Assembly (NCBI GenBank): GCA_905233565.1
Contig: CAJOCL010000014.1
Span: forward strand, 1-64,000
DNA length: 64,000 nt
Source of the DNA: an uncultured Synergistales bacterium
Lineage (GTDB): Bacteria > Synergistota > Synergistia > Synergistales > Aminobacteriaceae
Direction of reading: 5' to 3'
The position numbers and the translations under genes are program-made. Below the pieces are notes generated by a model that worked only from the letters and a program-made list of their open reading frames with translations, was not told where the DNA came from and made no database searches. Shown here in pieces: positions 17,844-26,564 of this stretch (position 1 is its first letter; each line of letters opens with the position of its first letter).

Positions 17844-19108
17844 TATATATTCACGTATTCGGCTGCCGTTCAAGTTTATGTGAGGGAGAATTTATAGCCG
17901 GAAGCCTGCAATCTCTCGGCCATGAAATCACTGAAGACCTGACGCAGGATTTTAACGCCGCCGTAGTCGTAACATGTTCGGTAACTCAGGAGGCTGACAG
18001 GAAATGCCGCAGTCTCGTGCGTAAACTGCGCCGCATTCTTGGAAATGACGGGATTCTTGCGGTCTGCGGCTGCTGGTCTGAAAGTCTGAGCGTTGAAAAA
18101 GCCCGTGAGCTCGGTATAGATATATTAGGCGGTTCAAAGGGCAAAAATTTAATGCCCTCAGCAGTTAATGACATGTTATGTCATGGCCGTGATTTCGCTG
18201 ACATCAGGAAATCTTTATCACAATGGGAAGAGATCGAAATTTCTGCGCCCGTAATGCACACTCGTTCATTCATGAAGATTCAGGACGGCTGCAATCATTT
18301 CTGTACTTACTGCATAATTCCTTTTTTGCGCGGAAAACCCGTGAGCAGACCCGAAAAAAATATATTAAGCGAAATTAACAGGCTCATTGACAACGGAACA
18401 AAAGAAATTATTTTCACCGGCATTCACTTGGGGATTTACGGCCATGATATTAATACAAATTTAGCTGAACTAATAAAGCAGGTCTCAAAGATTGACGGCC
18501 TTAAACGCTTGAGGCTCGGTTCAATTGAGCCGTTCTGCCTGAGTGATGATTTGATTAACGCTCTTGCTGAGTGTGAGTCTTTCTGTCATCATCTTCATAT
18601 CCCACTGCAGAGCGGTGATGACGGTATATTATCGTCAATGAGACGGGGTTATAATGCCCGCGAATTTCTGAACGTCTGTTACAAATTGCGTGAAAAAATT
18701 TCGGATAAAATTCATATTTCAAGCGATATACTTGTCGGATTTCCCGGTGAAAGTGATGACGCTTTCAAAAATACCCTGAGCGTCATGAAAGAAGCAGGAA
18801 TGGGACGCGTTCACGTCTTCCCTTACTCTGAAAGGCCCGGAACTTTAGCGGCTGAAATGAACGGCAAAATATCTCATCAGGTTAAAATTTCAAGGACTTC
18901 TGAAGCAATATCGCTCGGACGTAAGCTCTACGGTGATTATGCTGAAAGTTTCATAGGCAGTGAAGCAGAAATTCTCATCGAACGGGATAACAGGGGTTAC
19001 ACAAGGCATTACATCGAGGCTGAATGTTACGGCAAAAACAACGATATTTTGAAAGCTGAGGTGAAATCCTTTGATGACGGCAGACTCAAATGTTTGTGTC
19101 GGGATTGA
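17834..19108 (+). CDS. mtaB: tRNA t6A37 methylthiotransferase MtaB
   Basis: A radical-SAM enzyme that adds a methylthio group to t6A37 in ANN-decoding tRNAs. The N-terminal UPF0004 domain has three cluster cysteines (VFGCRSS, VTCSVTQEADRKCR, AVCGCW), the radical-SAM motif is CNHFCTYC at about residue 148, followed by RGKPVSRP, HIPLQSGDD and VGFPGE, and a TRAM-like C-terminus. The usual Asn after the first Cys (GCKVN) is replaced, the string being GCRSSLCE. ATG 17834 is chosen because it begins just before the conserved VYIHVFGC and overlaps prmA; an in-frame upstream start at 17810 adds eight residues without a better ribosome site. Confidence 0.9.
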   Translation: MGLVYIHVFGCRSSLCEGEFIAGSLQSLGHEITEDLTQDFNAAVVVTCSVTQEADRKCRSLVRKLRRILGNDGILAVCGCWSESLSVEKARELGIDILGGSKGKNLMPSAVNDMLCHGRDFADIRKSLSQWEEIEISAPVMHTRSFMKIQDGCNHFCTYCIIPFLRGKPVSRPEKNILSEINRLIDNGTKEIIFTGIHLGIYGHDINTNLAELIKQVSKIDGLKRLRLGSIEPFCLSDDLINALAECESFCHHLHIPLQSGDDGILSSMRRGYNAREFLNVCYKLREKISDKIHISSDILVGFPGESDDAFKNTLSVMKEAGMGRVHVFPYSERPGTLAAEMNGKISHQVKISRTSEAISLGRKLYGDYAESFIGSEAEILIERDNRGYTRHYIEAECYGKNNDILKAEVKSFDDGRLKCLCRD

Positions 19109-20042
19109 TTCGGGGTCTTCATGTTCAAAGCTGGCTTATTCAGACAGTTTAGGCACTAGGGTTATAACTCAGTGTGAGGGCTTTGATTTTCTTGAACTGA
19201 GAGAGGAGGCTGAAATATTTTTCGATGATCTTGTATTCTCCTGCGTCCTTTCAGTTCCCGAAAATTTAACGTCAAGGCAGAAATCAGGCATAAAATCAAA
19301 AGCTGAATTATCAGGCTTCAGAAATGTTAATTTAATCAGCGAAAATGAAGCCCTTAAACTCGCTGTTAATGACAACGGAAAAGTATTAATTTACGATTTC
19401 GGAGCGTCAAGAAGCCATATTTTATTTTTTGAAAACGGCAGTGTTGCCGACAGCGTGATTATAGATGATGTCTGCGGAAATTCTTTCGATATGTCATTCG
19501 CCGAATATCTGCGAGAAAGAAAGCTGCTTAAAAAAATAAATGATGACGTTCTGCGCGAGGCAAAAAGATTAAAACATGTTCTCAGCGTTAATAATTCCAG
19601 AATCTGGCACAACGCTGTTATATTGCGCGGAGATTTCGAGAGATTAATATATTTTCCCGTCAAAAGAGCCTCTCACTTCCTGAAGAGATTTATACGTGTC
19701 TTCAGGCCTGACAGAGTTATACTCACCGGAGGCTGTTCAAAAATTCCGTTAGTCCGTGAAATTTTTGATATTAAAGAAGTCATTGACGATTTAATTTCCA
19801 AAGGCTGCGCGCTGAAAGCACGTTCAATTACGAAAAGCGATACGGCAAAAAATATCAGCACTAAATCTCAGGGACAGTCAAGATTACGCGAAATAAGAGC
19901 TGAAATGCTCAGAATTGAAGACAAACTGACACGGAATCAAAAAGACAGATTATATGTCCTCTTCCGTCAGGCTGAAAATATTAACGACAACGGTATAACG
20001 GTTCTGATAGAAAATCTTCTCAATGAAATTGAAAATTTATAA
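19074..20042 (+). CDS. Lone Hsp70/actin-fold ATPase domain protein
   Basis: A 322-aa protein with the Hsp70 nucleotide-binding fold and no peptide-binding domain. Degenerate but recognisable signatures: GIDSGSSCSKLAY (phosphate 1), LIYDFGASRSHILFF (phosphate 2) and VILTGGCSKIPLVREIF (adenosine). The last 70 residues are a charged helical tail (LREIRAEMLRIEDKL, ENLLNEIENL) reminiscent of the DnaK lid. GAGGTG is 7 bases before TTG 19071 and 10 before ATG 19074; either may be used. The start lies inside mtaB, giving about 35 bases of overlap, so the gene is translationally tied to tRNA modification and PrmA. The substrate or partner is unknown. Confidence 0.75.
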   Translation: MTADSNVCVGIDSGSSCSKLAYSDSLGTRVITQCEGFDFLELREEAEIFFDDLVFSCVLSVPENLTSRQKSGIKSKAELSGFRNVNLISENEALKLAVNDNGKVLIYDFGASRSHILFFENGSVADSVIIDDVCGNSFDMSFAEYLRERKLLKKINDDVLREAKRLKHVLSVNNSRIWHNAVILRGDFERLIYFPVKRASHFLKRFIRVFRPDRVILTGGCSKIPLVREIFDIKEVIDDLISKGCALKARSITKSDTAKNISTKSQGQSRLREIRAEMLRIEDKLTRNQKDRLYVLFRQAENINDNGITVLIENLLNEIENL

Positions 20043-20109: not shown

Positions 20110-21216
20110 TTGCGGAAAAATTCACGCTCATTAAATAACATATCAAAACGCAGAAAAAGAAGCCGTAAACTTCTCTCTTCAGGAATAATATTATTCCTGC
20201 TGATTTTTGTTCTATTCTCGGCATGTTATTCGTCATATCATCTTAAAGTCCCTTATGTTTTCTGGGAATATATGATTCCAATTCCTGAAGGCGAAAAAGT
20301 CAGCGTACATATTGAAAACGGAATGACAGCATCTCAGGCAGCCAGAGCATTTGAAATTCAGGGAGCATTAGTTACGGGTTCACCGGTACAATTAGCACAA
20401 TGGATGATAAAATTCGGCCTCGACAGGAAAATACGCCCAGGGCATTACAGCGTTGTTCCGTCAGACGCTTGGAACTTAGCGCGTCAGTTAAGGACAGCAA
20501 AGCCGGCACTGCTGAAAGCTCAGATCCTGCCGGGCATTGATGTTTTTGCACTTATAGAATCCCTTGAAAGCCAGGACAGAAAAGTTACACGTGAAAAATT
20601 CTCACAGGCTTTAATGAACAATGCAAATTATCCTTCAGGGCTTCTTGAAATACTCAGATTATTGCCCGAAGACGAATATACACGTACAGCGTTCCTCATG
20701 CCTGAAACTTATATGCTTGTTGACAGGACAGCCGACGAGATCGTCAACGCCTCATCTTCTGCATGGTGGAGTCACTGGGGCGATTTCATAACCGAACATG
20801 ATCTTACGTCATCAGATATTTTTGACGCTTCAATTATTGCCTCAATGGTTGAGCGCGAAGTCCTTCACGATTCCGAGAGCAGGGCAGTAGCAGGAGTTAT
20901 TCACAACAGGCTGCGAAGTAACATGCTGCTTCAGATTGATGCAACTGTTGTTTATGCGTGGCGTTTGAAGGGGCGCAAACTTACACGGGTACTTAACAAA
21001 GACCTCGAAATTAATTCGCCGTACAACACTTATAAATTTACGGGACTCCCTCCAAGACCGATATGCATTCCGGGCGTTGAGGCATGGGGTGCCGCCCTTG
21101 ATCCAGAGTACAGCGAATATTTGTATTATGTTGCCGGGAGAGACGGCTATCACCATTTCGCAAAGACATACAAGCAGCATTTAGCCAATATAAGACAGGT
21201 ACGCTCAGGAAGATAA
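20110..21216 (+). CDS. mltG: Endolytic murein transglycosylase MltG
   Basis: A 368-aa membrane-anchored enzyme that cuts nascent glycan strands. A basic N-terminus is followed by one membrane helix (residues 24-40, IILFLLIFVLFSACYSS), a LysM-like region (IENGMTASQAARAFEIQGAL) and the YceG domain with the catalytic Glu in ASMVEREVLHD, then LQIDATVVYAW, SPYNTY and GLPPRPICIPG, all family hallmarks. Start TTG 20110 lies about 11 bases after AGGA. It heads the division cluster under its own promoter. Confidence 0.93.
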   Translation: MRKNSRSLNNISKRRKRSRKLLSSGIILFLLIFVLFSACYSSYHLKVPYVFWEYMIPIPEGEKVSVHIENGMTASQAARAFEIQGALVTGSPVQLAQWMIKFGLDRKIRPGHYSVVPSDAWNLARQLRTAKPALLKAQILPGIDVFALIESLESQDRKVTREKFSQALMNNANYPSGLLEILRLLPEDEYTRTAFLMPETYMLVDRTADEIVNASSSAWWSHWGDFITEHDLTSSDIFDASIIASMVEREVLHDSESRAVAGVIHNRLRSNMLLQIDATVVYAWRLKGRKLTRVLNKDLEINSPYNTYKFTGLPPRPICIPGVEAWGAALDPEYSEYLYYVAGRDGYHHFAKTYKQHLANIRQVRSGR

Positions 21217-21229
21217 GGAGTGATTAAAA

Positions 21230-23380
21230 TTGAGCCGCAGAAGTAATGAAAATAAGGGGAGCTGGTCGGAATTAATACTGTTTTTCATGATTATATTATG
21301 TATATATTTCATACTTGCACTTTTCGACAGCTCTTTCTCAGGTGAGGGCGGGCGTGAATGGGGGAAATACCTCCGCAATGCTTGGGGGGGCGCGGTTATA
21401 GTCCCGTTGTTGTTCTGGCTTTATCTTTGCACCGCAAAACTCTTGAAGTTCAGGGTTCCCAGAGTGCCGCGACAGGTTTTAGGAACTATTCAGTTATATA
21501 TATCTTTTGCGTTCCTTCTCGGCCTTCTCCGTGAAACAGGCTGGAACTCAGAAGCAACACTCTTTATTCCCGGCAGTGTCGGCTCAGGGCTTGCAAAATT
21601 TTTCGTCCTTAACGTCGGGACATTTATTACATTACTGCTTGTTATAGCGTCTTTCCTGTTTTCAGCATTCCTTTTCGGCTCAAAAATTTTCAGAGCCTCG
21701 CTTCCTCAGTTCCCTTCAGTTCCTGAAATGATTTCAAGATTCCGCAGGGCTTCAAGAAAACGCAGCCGTAAATCTGCACGCCATCATGAAGATTATGAAG
21801 ATTATGAAACTGAAAACAGACAGCCTTCATATTTAGACCGTCCAGAAAATATACTGTTCAGCAAAAATATACCTGTTCCCAATATACCCGTTCCCACCCT
21901 TAAACCAGCACCGATAGAGTATGTCAGTGATGATAATGATAACGATAATAATAATGATTATTATGATGACGGCTTGAAATACCCTGAGATTCCAAACAAT
22001 ATGACAGCTCCAGGCAGTGTCAGCGTTGTAAGCAATGCCCTTGAAATTATTGACAATGCACTGGCCATGATTGATTCTGGCGAGCTTAAAGCACCTGAGG
22101 AAAAACGCAAAAAAACTCCATTCCGTCCCAAGAAAATGCGGAGGCCGCTCCCTGCCGTAACATTCCCCGACACGGACGGTGAAGTTAAAGGAGTTCAGGA
22201 CAGTTCAGGAGTTGACGAGTCCGTATTCCCTCCGCCTTCTGAACTTTTCGGCTCAAGAGTAAAAACTGAACCTGACAGGGATATTCTGAAAAATTCTGAA
22301 AAACAGGCAAAACAGATAACGTCAACCCTCAAAAATTTTGGAATTAACGCGACTGTTTCACACATAATAACCGGTGCTTCCGTCATTCAGTATCAGCTCG
22401 AACTTGCACCGGGTACAAAAGTCAGCAAAATTTCAGGGCTTTCCGAAGATTTATCTATGTCGCTGGCCGTAATGTCCGTGAGAATTGAAGCACCCATACT
22501 CGGCACTCATTACGTAGGAATAGAAGTCCCCGCTGCTGAACGAAAGATTATCGCTCTCAGAAATATTGTTGACAGCAGCGAGTTTCAAAATTCAGCGGCA
22601 AGGCTCCCGATTCCTCTGGGGGCTAAGGTTGACGGGAAAATCTCAGTTGCAGGCCTTGAGGATATGCCCCACATCTTAATTGCAGGCGCAAAAGGTTCAG
22701 GGCGCAGCATGTTCGTTAATTCGTGTATTTTAAGCATGTGTTCACGCCGCAGACCCGAAGAGCTTAAACTGATACTGATTGACCCGAAACACGTTGATTT
22801 CGCCGTTTATGACGGACTGCCGCATTTATTGGCCTCTCCCGTCTATGAACCCGAAAAGGCTTTGAACGCATTGAAGTGGGCATATTCAGAAATGGAGAAG
22901 AGGACAGCAGATTTTGCATCCCTTCGCGTCCGTAATCTGGCCTCGTTCAATAGGAAACAGAATAAAAAAGACAGGCTGCCCGAAATTGTCATAGTCATTA
23001 ACGAACTCTCAGACATAGTTTACAGTGCCGGATCCGATATTGAAGGTATGATAATGAGGCTGGCTCAGAAATCAGGCGCATCAGGTATCTATATGATGAT
23101 TGCATCACAAAGGCCGTCCCCCGATGTTTTCACGACGATGATAAAGTCAAACATTCCTGCAAGGGCGGTATTCTCGATAACATCAGATGCAGAATCCAGA
23201 AATATAATCGGAACTTCTGACGCAATGAGGCTCACGGGCAGGGGCGATATGCTTTTCAGGAATACAGGGAACCCTCAGCCCGTCAGGCTTCAGGCACCTT
23301 ATGTCAGCGAAGATAAGATTTCAGATTTCGTTGAATACATGATGAGCAATTTGGAACCGCCTAAATTGATGACGTTCTGA
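21230..23380 (+). CDS. ftsK: FtsK/SpoIIIE-family protein with degenerate Walker motifs
   Basis: A 716-aa inner-membrane protein. Four membrane helices (about 14-31, 53-72, 83-100, 124-150) are followed by a long acidic/Asn-rich linker (a D/N run near 235-250) and the alpha/beta motor. Family strings include VSHIITGASVIQYQLELAPG, VPAAERKIIALRNIV, LIDPKHVDFAVYDGLPHLL and MMIASQRPSPDVFTTMIKSNIP. The Walker A loop reads GAKGSGRSM with Arg492 for the invariant Lys, and the Walker B strand reads IVIVINELSD with Asn591 for Asp; Glu592 is kept. The C-terminus stops after the motor fold, so the DNA-orienting gamma domain is missing. It may therefore be a structural divisome protein and not an active translocase. 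Start TTG 21230 with AAGGAG. Confidence 0.85.
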   Translation: MSRRSNENKGSWSELILFFMIILCIYFILALFDSSFSGEGGREWGKYLRNAWGGAVIVPLLFWLYLCTAKLLKFRVPRVPRQVLGTIQLYISFAFLLGLLRETGWNSEATLFIPGSVGSGLAKFFVLNVGTFITLLLVIASFLFSAFLFGSKIFRASLPQFPSVPEMISRFRRASRKRSRKSARHHEDYEDYETENRQPSYLDRPENILFSKNIPVPNIPVPTLKPAPIEYVSDDNDNDNNNDYYDDGLKYPEIPNNMTAPGSVSVVSNALEIIDNALAMIDSGELKAPEEKRKKTPFRPKKMRRPLPAVTFPDTDGEVKGVQDSSGVDESVFPPPSELFGSRVKTEPDRDILKNSEKQAKQITSTLKNFGINATVSHIITGASVIQYQLELAPGTKVSKISGLSEDLSMSLAVMSVRIEAPILGTHYVGIEVPAAERKIIALRNIVDSSEFQNSAARLPIPLGAKVDGKISVAGLEDMPHILIAGAKGSGRSMFVNSCILSMCSRRRPEELKLILIDPKHVDFAVYDGLPHLLASPVYEPEKALNALKWAYSEMEKRTADFASLRVRNLASFNRKQNKKDRLPEIVIVINELSDIVYSAGSDIEGMIMRLAQKSGASGIYMMIASQRPSPDVFTTMIKSNIPARAVFSITSDAESRNIIGTSDAMRLTGRGDMLFRNTGNPQPVRLQAPYVSEDKISDFVEYMMSNLEPPKLMTF

Positions 23381-23438: not shown

Positions 23439-24800
23439 ATGATAAATAATATTCGTCGCGTCCACCTTATGGGTGTCGGCGGTGCAGGAATGAGCGCACT
23501 TGCGAAACTGTTACAGTCAAACGGCCTTGAAGTATCGGGCTGTGATCTGAAATTTCCGCATTACGATTTAGGCACCGTAAAATTTCTTTCAGGCCATGAC
23601 CCTGCACACATAGACGCTTTGAAACCTGAAGCATTGATTTTAAGTAGTGCTGTCAGCCGTAATAATCCTGAAGTCCTACGCGCTCAGGAACTCGGCATAA
23701 AGATACTTTCACGCGCTCAGGCATTGAGTTATCTCTTCAACAAAAAATCAGGCATAGGAATAGCAGGAGCTCACGGAAAAACTACAACGTCATCAATGAC
23801 GGGATTAATTTTTCTCAGGGCAGGACTTAACCCGACTGTTTATGTCGGTGCAAACGTCCCCGACATCGGCAGCAACGCCGTATCAGGTTCGGGGGAATAT
23901 TTCATTGCCGAACTTGACGAATCGGACGGAACATTTGAGCTTTTCACGCCCGAAGTTGCCGTAATAACAAATGCAGACTGGGATCACGTCGATCATTACC
24001 CGTCGCGTGAGGACGTAATAAAGGCTTTCACGAGATTTTCAGACGGAAGGAAAGAGGGCGGAACTTTAATTCTTTGTGCTGAAGATGAAGGAGCATCACG
24101 CGTATATGAACTATGCAGCAAAAATCGCGGTGAAATTATACTTTACGGCTGGGGAAAAAGTTTCGGCTGGGGAGCCTATGACCTCAAAAAAACTCACGGC
24201 GGCGGCATATCCTGCAAAGTTTCGCATAACGGCAAAGAACTCGGCACCCTTGAGCTTTCAGTTTCAGGCGAACACAATGTGTTAAATTCTCTCGCAGCAA
24301 TCTCGGCAGCCTTTTCATGCGGCGTTGATTTCGATACAAGTTCCGAAATTCTCAGGAGCTTTCACGGTTCAGAAAGGAGAATGCAGGTTAAGGGAATAAC
24401 GGAAAATGATGTTCTTGTCATGGACGATTACGCACATCACCCGTCAGAAATCAGCGCAACCCTCAACGCTGTTCGAGGAATTTACCCCGAACGCAGAATC
24501 GTTGTCGTCTATCAGCCCCACAGATTCACGCGTACGGCGATGTTTGCAGGTGATATAGCACAATCGCTCAGCATGGCCGGAAAAGTTTTCATTCTCCCCG
24601 TTTATTCAGCAGGCGAAAAGGAATGCCCTCACAGCTCATCGGATGAAATTATCAATCTCAGCAGCGGAAATATTAAAGCACTTAAATTTAATGATGCCCC
24701 CGAAATCCTCAAAGCTGAACTGAAAGCAGGAGATCTGCTTCTGACAATGGGAGCCGGTGACGTATACATGATAGGCGAGAATTTTTTGAATGAGAATTAA
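23439..24800 (+). CDS. murC: UDP-N-acetylmuramate--L-alanine ligase
   Basis: The 453-aa cytosolic ligase that adds L-Ala to UDP-MurNAc. N-terminal UDP-binding loop VHLMGVGGAGMSALAKLL, ATP loop GIAGAHGKTTTSSM at about residue 105, central ELDESDGTF and ITNADWDHVDHY, and the C-terminal VMDDYAHHPSEISATL with YQPHRFTRT. All are standard MurC signatures and the length is normal. It precedes murB and ftsQ. Confidence 0.97.
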   Translation: MINNIRRVHLMGVGGAGMSALAKLLQSNGLEVSGCDLKFPHYDLGTVKFLSGHDPAHIDALKPEALILSSAVSRNNPEVLRAQELGIKILSRAQALSYLFNKKSGIGIAGAHGKTTTSSMTGLIFLRAGLNPTVYVGANVPDIGSNAVSGSGEYFIAELDESDGTFELFTPEVAVITNADWDHVDHYPSREDVIKAFTRFSDGRKEGGTLILCAEDEGASRVYELCSKNRGEIILYGWGKSFGWGAYDLKKTHGGGISCKVSHNGKELGTLELSVSGEHNVLNSLAAISAAFSCGVDFDTSSEILRSFHGSERRMQVKGITENDVLVMDDYAHHPSEISATLNAVRGIYPERRIVVVYQPHRFTRTAMFAGDIAQSLSMAGKVFILPVYSAGEKECPHSSSDEIINLSSGNIKALKFNDAPEILKAELKAGDLLLTMGAGDVYMIGENFLNEN

Positions 24801-25796: not shown

Positions 25797-26564
25797 GTGC
25801 GTTTACGTCCGTCAAGAATATTTTTTATGGCAATGTTAGCAGGATCAGTTATGTATATCTCGCAATATAAATACTGGTTTACCCTGAAGGGCTACAAAGT
25901 TCAGACACAGTCTCAGGCACTTGAGCAGAGATTATGGGAAGTTTTCCCGAAAAGATGCCTCACTTTCTGGCCGTATATGCTGTCAGACAGGAACGGTATA
26001 AAAGAATTTCTTGAACGCGATGTCCCCGTAACAGTAAATACTGAAATGGATGGGCTTGGAAAATTTACGACGAGTATTTCATGGCTTGAAGCCTGGATAA
26101 AAGTAGAATGGAGAGGCCAGATCTGGTGCATTTCGCGTGACGGCAGAATGTGGCTTTTCGAGCGCGGAAGGCGCAACGACAACAGCGCAGGACGGCTCGT
26201 CTGGAAAATCCCGGACGAAGGGAACAATACGGAGGGCGTTACTCCTCAGGCACCTATGAGCGGAGTATTCAAGTCGCCGATTTCAACGGAAGTAATTGCG
26301 TCGTTCCTCGATGAATTTCGCGGGTGCAGGTGGTTTGAGGCTGCAAACGAAATCACTTGGGAACGCAGGGCAGGAATGGATCTTTTTGTACTGAAACTTT
26401 CACACGGTACGCAGAAGTTTGAACTTTATCTTCAGCGCGAAAAGTATTCGGGACAGGATGTTGGCGAAATTATAGAAGAATTGTTTTCAAGACTGATTAA
26501 TGAGGGCGGTAATCATGTTATTGATGCAACATATGAAGGGAAAGTCTTATTGCGTAGCTTATAA
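25797..26564 (+). CDS. ftsQ: Probable divisome protein FtsQ/DivIB
   Basis: A 255-aa bitopic protein: short basic N-terminus, one membrane helix (about 8-24, IFFMAMLAGSVMYISQY), then a POTRA-like segment (LKGYKVQTQSQALEQRLWEVFP) and an FtsQ-type beta domain with WLEAWIKVEWRGQIWCISRDGRMWLF, resembling the 'ER.P.A...lvd.dG..f' pattern. Position between murB and ftsA is where ftsQ normally sits. Similarity is weak enough that the name rests largely on context and topology. Confidence 0.65.
   Translation: MRLRPSRIFFMAMLAGSVMYISQYKYWFTLKGYKVQTQSQALEQRLWEVFPKRCLTFWPYMLSDRNGIKEFLERDVPVTVNTEMDGLGKFTTSISWLEAWIKVEWRGQIWCISRDGRMWLFERGRRNDNSAGRLVWKIPDEGNNTEGVTPQAPMSGVFKSPISTEVIASFLDEFRGCRWFEAANEITWERRAGMDLFVLKLSHGTQKFELYLQREKYSGQDVGEIIEELFSRLINEGGNHVIDATYEGKVLLRSL

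Follow-up and report, generated by a model that had tools for sequence, protein, structure and literature searches.

FtsK is regarded as a near-universal pump of DNA at the septum, and whether its division role can be separated from its motor has so far been approached by engineered truncations. The locus presented here raises the question of whether an FtsK can be maintained in nature after the catalytic residues of its motor are lost. It lies in the window, which is the whole stretch of DNA that was analysed (64,000 nucleotides of contig CAJOCL010000014.1 from an uncultured Synergistales bacterium). The initial annotation had reported an Arg for the Walker A Lys (R492, CGC at 22703), an Asn for the Walker B Asp (N591, AAC at 23000), a missing gamma domain, four membrane helices and flanking mltG and murC genes, and all of these held to the exact base. 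The annotation had overlooked the arginine finger, whose replacement by Gly616 brings the number of lost catalytic elements to three. The proposal that this FtsK serves as a divisome scaffold and not as a pump is supported by the present analysis, the scaffold role itself being drawn by analogy from E. coli.

The protein belongs to the FtsK/SpoIIIE family by descent, as shown by its alpha and beta domains, its membrane helices and the mltG gene upstream (Table 1), and the gene is a true FtsK orthologue, the mltG-ftsK neighbourhood being common to the family. The Pfam profiles FtsK_alpha and FtsK_SpoIIIE were matched with 84.7 bits (5.6e-24, cut-off 22.9) and 150.6 bits (5.8e-44, cut-off 24) respectively, and the best solved relative is the motor of P. 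aeruginosa FtsK (2iuu, E = 5.9e-80). Four membrane segments were given by hydropathy at about residues 9-39, 50-74, 82-101 and 109-156. The C-terminus stands 40 residues past the RGDMLF motif; relatives extend 130-146 residues past it. The protein has one beta domain and sits in the division cluster, and it does not meet the criterion for type VII EccC/EssC proteins, which is the presence of several ATPase domains in tandem within a WXG100 locus. The criteria for an active pump, namely a Walker A Lys (GxxGxGK[ST]), a Mg-binding Walker B Asp (hhhhDE), an arginine finger, a winged-helix gamma domain that reads KOPS and activates XerD, and the partners XerC/XerD, are not met either. An AlphaFold2 prediction made from a two-sequence alignment gave a mean pLDDT of 36 and was discarded.

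The mltG gene is found 5' of ftsK in nearly all genomes of the family with a sufficiently long contig, and the adjacency of ftsK and murC was observed in the window's genus only. The position of ftsK beside the murC-murB-ftsQ-like-ftsA-ftsZ genes is merely suggestive of a divisome role, with septal localisation and recruitment of later division proteins. The ORF at the ftsQ position (25797-26564) has no Pfam match and is kept at that place across the genus. Between an MtaB-like gene and mltG there is a short Hsp70/MreB-like ATPase ORF of 323 aa (19071-20042), which covers only part of the Hsp70 profile.

Table 1. Positions of the ftsK gene, its parts and its neighbours in the window
Feature	Position	Strand	Remarks
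mltG (YceG)	20110..21216	+	directly 5' of ftsK; conserved neighbour, rate yardstick
ftsK (FtsK, likely hydrolysis-dead)	21230..23380	+	TTG start, 716 aa/codons; Pfam and 2iuu match
Four-helix membrane domain, aa about 9-156	21254..21697	+	hydropathy
FtsK alpha domain, aa 350-434	22277..22531	+	Pfam FtsK_alpha
FtsK beta / RecA-like motor domain, aa 443-630 by Pfam	22556..23119	+	FtsK_SpoIIIE
Degenerate Walker A GAKGSGRS	22685..22708	+	R492 = CGC, 22703-22705, for Lys
Walker B Asp to Asn591 (AAC)	23000..23002	+	IVIVINELSD; catalytic Glu592 retained
Lost arginine finger, Gly616 (GGC)	23075..23077	+	equivalent of P. aeruginosa R620
Pore-loop DNA-contact residues R628 (=R632), K639 (=K643), R657 (=R661)	23111..23200	+	still basic
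murC	23439..24800	+	directly 3' of ftsK; first in murC-murB-ftsQ-like-ftsA-ftsZ cluster

The survey was done on a family sample of 83 genomes from 20 genera, and FtsK was detected in 80 of them. The alignment contains 42 FtsK sequences from the window's genus (43 genomes) and 37 from other genera. The genomes of the genus are 1.5-2.8 Mb in size and apparently draft assemblies; that of the window's own organism is 96.5% complete. The ftsK gene is readable in 41 of the 43, mostly full-length or interrupted only by contig ends; in G049 it is truncated by a contig end, and G054 (79% complete) is without both mltG and ftsK. In G046 (L127) an in-frame TAA was seen between the alpha and beta domains, which is perhaps a genuine nonsense mutation in a motor that was idle already. 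The numbering of P. aeruginosa FtsK was transferred by a constant offset that fits R632, S634, V635, G640, K643, K657 and R661. According to Jean et al. 2020 (PMC7321959), R620 is the arginine finger of that protein, and its main DNA-contact residues are K657, R661, R632 and K643. The finger is the Arg of the QKARAAG motif, to which Gly616 corresponds in the window protein.

The loss of catalytic residues is shown at the level of sequence and is a property of the genus. All 37 aligned sequences of other genera have the Walker A Lys, the Walker A Thr (position 487), the Walker B Asp, the Lys of the IDPK motif and the Arg of the finger (residue 616), whereas in the genus these are present in 21/42, 0/42, 9/42, 5/42 and 1/41 sequences respectively. 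The Walker B Glu is kept in 41 of the 42 genus sequences and the Walker A glycines are mostly retained. When four positions were tallied (Walker A Lys, Walker A Ser/Thr, Walker B Asp and finger Arg), the 41 genus sequences were found to have lost none (1), one (4), two (11), three (20) or all four (5), that is, three or four are gone in 25/41. The finger alone is missing in G034, G046 and G059, where both Walker motifs are intact. G055 (L039) is the sole member with Walker A, Walker B and arginine finger, and it is still without gamma and Xer.

The same R and N as in the window FtsK are carried by the sister species G023 and by many other members of the genus, and therefore R492 and N591 are not sequencing errors; an oddity of one strain was ruled out on the same ground. 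Whether the two residues are fixed in a clade, as the initial annotation had asked, was partly confirmed: motif loss is genus-wide and the sister genera are intact, but Lys492 remains in half of the genus. Both residues vary within the genus, and the common lesion is the arginine finger. Sequencing error was one of two findings named in advance as refuting loss of function, and it failed; the other was binding of ATP through shifted residues. This would leave the protein an active translocase with non-canonical residues, for example with Lys488 acting for Lys492, and it may be said in its favour that Lys488 lies within the loop GAKGSGRS and that the Walker B Glu is so widely kept. Residue 488 is, however, basic in 8/19 Arg492 sequences vs 8/21 Lys492 sequences, so a basic residue there is not associated with loss of Lys492 and compensation by it was ruled out. 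The finger, Walker A and Walker B are moreover altered in many combinations without a common replacement, and we consider an active translocase unlikely.

The loss of the partners of FtsK in dimer resolution is likewise shown. No match to FtsK gamma (PF09397) was found anywhere in the organism's own genome, and the domain is absent in 43/43 genus genomes and present in 33/40 other genomes of the family. Matches to XerD/XerC of 190 bits or more were taken as Xer-grade; none occurs in the 43 genus genomes, including the organism's own, for which XerC/XerD had been proposed as a search, and they are present in 35/40 others, usually as two genes. The tyrosine-recombinase matches of the genus are scattered integrases of at most 129 bits, and no tyrosine recombinase domain was found in the own genome (96.5% complete). 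It has a single serine recombinase, the resolvase of an IS607-type element at L134:4702-6484 (contig C18), where the resolvase-domain ORF is followed by a TnpB-like ORF. Five other genomes of 97-100% completeness (G024, G053, G055, G056 and G058) gave no tyrosine or serine recombinase match. A replacement recombinase of tyrosine, serine or telomere-resolvase type was ruled out, as none is conserved in the genus. A generic dif pattern with three mismatches is absent, as it is from most genomes with Xer, and is hence uninformative. The dif/XerCD system was described as remarkably conserved by Kono et al. 2011 (PMC3025954), who left the machinery of species without dif/XerCD to future research.

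RecA has been retained, most genomes of the genus giving a match of about E = 1e-115. A linear chromosome, in which no dimers arise and Xer, gamma and pump are useless, would account for their joint loss with RecA retained. Linear bacterial chromosomes are rare, the 43 genus genomes gave no match to telomere resolvases of the ResT/TelK family, and the sample contains no closed genome of the genus. This explanation is very unlikely.

The genus forms one clade (support 100/99) nested beside genera with gamma and Xer. On trees built without the columns of the Walker A Lys and Walker B Asp, at least 5-7 separate changes are required at the former and at least 5-6 at the latter. G068 and G078, which belong to other lineages of the family and do not group as sisters with the window's genus, have lost Xer and gamma with a fully canonical motor. 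These canonical motors suggest that Xer and gamma were lost first and that the motor decayed later, but the order is unproven. In G068 (L130 / L057) the FtsK ends inside gamma (...MDTGIASASGL), apparently by a recent and separate loss. G078 has two mltG-ftsK loci (L060, L062), both encoding FtsKs without gamma; this duplication may be false, because contamination of the genome is 9%.

The rates of the domains were compared for pairs in the same band of MltG distance, within the genus and outside it. MltG was used as the clock and MurC was dropped, because murC is not adjacent to ftsK outside the genus. For MltG distances of 0.25-0.45, genus pairs differ by 0.54 in the membrane domain (0.57 outside) and by 0.63 in the beta domain (0.095 outside); at 0.45-0.7 the corresponding values are 0.63 (0.66 outside) and 0.92 (0.143 outside). 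In the lowest band (0.05-0.25, with only 11 outside pairs) they are 0.41 vs 0.20 for the membrane domain and 0.30 vs 0.03 for beta. The contrast in rates is thus shown: divergence of beta is about 6-7 times that of other genera at matched MltG distance, and relaxation is mainly on the motor, the membrane domain evolving at about the family rate except in the lowest band. The dN/dS of beta in close pairs is 0.04-0.16 in the genus and 0.009-0.06 outside; being well below 1, it indicates that the motor is selected for something and is not a pseudogene.

That the gene is decaying into a pseudogene, or is an artefact of assembly, might be proposed in view of the draft-like assemblies and the in-frame TAA of G046. 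Against this stand the 41/43 readable genes, the dN/dS range of the genus and the unchanged rate of the membrane domain, by which this explanation is all but excluded and, for the genus as a whole, refuted.

The residues of the motor that face DNA were also followed. A basic residue stands at the R632, K643 and R661 equivalents in 85%, 100% and 90% of the genus, as against 5% basic at the finger position and 24% acidic at the Walker B Asp position; the contact equivalents of V635 and G640 are lost. The invariant charged residues of the motor are mostly still charged apart from the finger and the Walker B Asp, with other charge losses at about seven positions, e.g. 542, 580, 602, 661, 666 and 680. 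It is possible that the ring is a passive DNA clamp or checkpoint, in which hexamers would still encircle septal DNA through the retained Lys and Arg of the pore loops and, with no need for hydrolysis, hold back closure for as long as DNA is in the way. Unlike the explanation preferred below, this one gives the ring a positive DNA function of its own. The retained basic contacts and the low dN/dS of beta speak for it. On the other hand, many other charged residues of the motor are equally kept, so that the retention may reflect fold constraint only, and the V635 and G640 contacts and the gamma reader are gone.

The initial annotation had left the choice between DNA translocation by another protein and its being dispensed with, and had called for a second FtsK with GxTGSGKS and gamma. 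No second classical FtsK having either of these was found in the own genome or in the genus genomes. The strong PF01580 matches of the genus other than FtsK come from EssC-like proteins some 1500 aa long or from their fragments. All PF01580 matches beyond FtsK, being EssC-like or weak, were ruled out as candidates for a second intact FtsK. G024 has a second FtsK-like piece, probably from contamination. In the own genome, contig C17 carries a Type VIIb-like secretion locus (L133:7062-18094) with an EssC-like protein of 1501 aa (an FHA domain and FtsK/SpoIIIE ATPase domains), a YukD-like protein, WXG100 proteins, a phosphatase-like ORF and a Ser/Thr kinase. The first ATPase domain of this EssC-like protein is intact (GTSGSGKS and VIDEFAEL), and the organism is therefore not simply tolerant of broken ATP sites, which provides an internal control. 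The same intact motifs are the only point in favour of this ATPase pumping DNA in place of FtsK. EssC-type ATPases export proteins, the gene sits among WXG100, YukD and kinase genes of a secretion locus, and EssC-like genes occur in a minority of the genus only; pumping by this or another protein is all but excluded. As no candidate for a replacement pump was found, dispensed with is the better reading.

The explanation that we prefer, and hold to be likely, is that the window FtsK is hydrolysis-dead and has been kept for a membrane and divisome role after the loss of Xer and gamma. The loss of ATP hydrolysis is inferred from the general biochemistry of P-loops and RecA-type rings, without biochemistry on this protein, and the loss of pumping and the retained divisome role are inferences as well. 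The ancestor of the genus would have lost XerC/XerD and the gamma domain, their absence being shown and the order inferred, and we propose that FtsK was therefore not needed for joining dif sites. The near-universal loss of the arginine finger, which fires ATP in the neighbouring subunit, would have come next, and the Walker A Lys, Walker A Ser and Walker B Asp would have decayed several separate times. By analogy with E. coli, FtsK would be retained for its four-helix membrane domain, which may form a septal hexamer and help to recruit FtsQ and later divisome proteins. The alpha-beta ring, folded and with basic DNA contacts, may sit passively on DNA or support formation of the hexamer. Pumping of septal DNA would have been given up, and the cell would have to avoid the chromosome dimers that RecA makes or resolve them by some route not yet identified.

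Some reservations apply to this explanation. The Walker B Glu kept in nearly all sequences, the mostly kept Walker A glycines, the mild change from Lys to Arg and the intact G055 mean that nucleotide binding or weak hydrolysis is not excluded. G034, G046 and G059, with nothing but the finger gone, also count against it. The continued purifying selection on the motor means that it retains some function and counts against a simple idle reading. A bolder reading, which can be put forward only as a possibility, is a RecA-positive genus without Xer, gamma or ATP-driven pumping, whose FtsK forms a septal ring that needs no hydrolysis and holds DNA passively, dimers being avoided or resolved otherwise.

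On the preferred explanation, evolution has separated the division role of FtsK from its motor across a genus of 43 species. G068 and G078 of the same family would be earlier stages, with gamma and Xer lost and the motor intact, and G055 may act as a natural control which keeps the catalytic residues without gamma or Xer. The lineages provide a natural series for asking why the motor exists and what the membrane domain alone does. The data suggest that a RecA-proficient lineage apparently divides without the standard machinery for untangling chromosomes, and the genus will be useful for studying how such bacteria handle chromosome dimers without Xer/dif. The open-access literature that was searched, which leaves out subscription papers, yielded no case of an FtsK inactivated in nature.

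The window FtsK resembles the FtsK of E. coli and P. aeruginosa (2iuu, 6t8b) in its four-helix membrane domain, its alpha and beta domains and its basic pore loop, and differs from them in having no gamma, Arg for Lys, Asn for Asp, no finger and no XerC/XerD. In E. coli the N-terminal domain of FtsK forms hexamers at midcell even when the translocase is missing, and recruitment of FtsQ depends on FtsK (PMC3870252). As in the laboratory truncations to FtsKN (PMC3870252), a division role is expected from the membrane domain alone; unlike in these, the motor of the genus has not been deleted: it keeps its fold and remains under selection, and it is evolution that has taken away its catalytic residues. 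The degenerate domains of EccC/EssC (such as the EccC5 DUF domain, PMC11154593) are similar in being FtsK/SpoIIIE RecA folds without catalytic residues that are put to structural use, but they are extras beside active domains, whereas in the genus the only motor of the only FtsK is affected. Life without an FtsK pump is also known from Buchnera, which is without FtsK (PMC10591338). Buchnera, however, is a reduced obligate endosymbiont in which the gene itself was lost, whereas the present genus, with genomes of 1.5-2.8 Mb, has kept both RecA and the FtsK protein.
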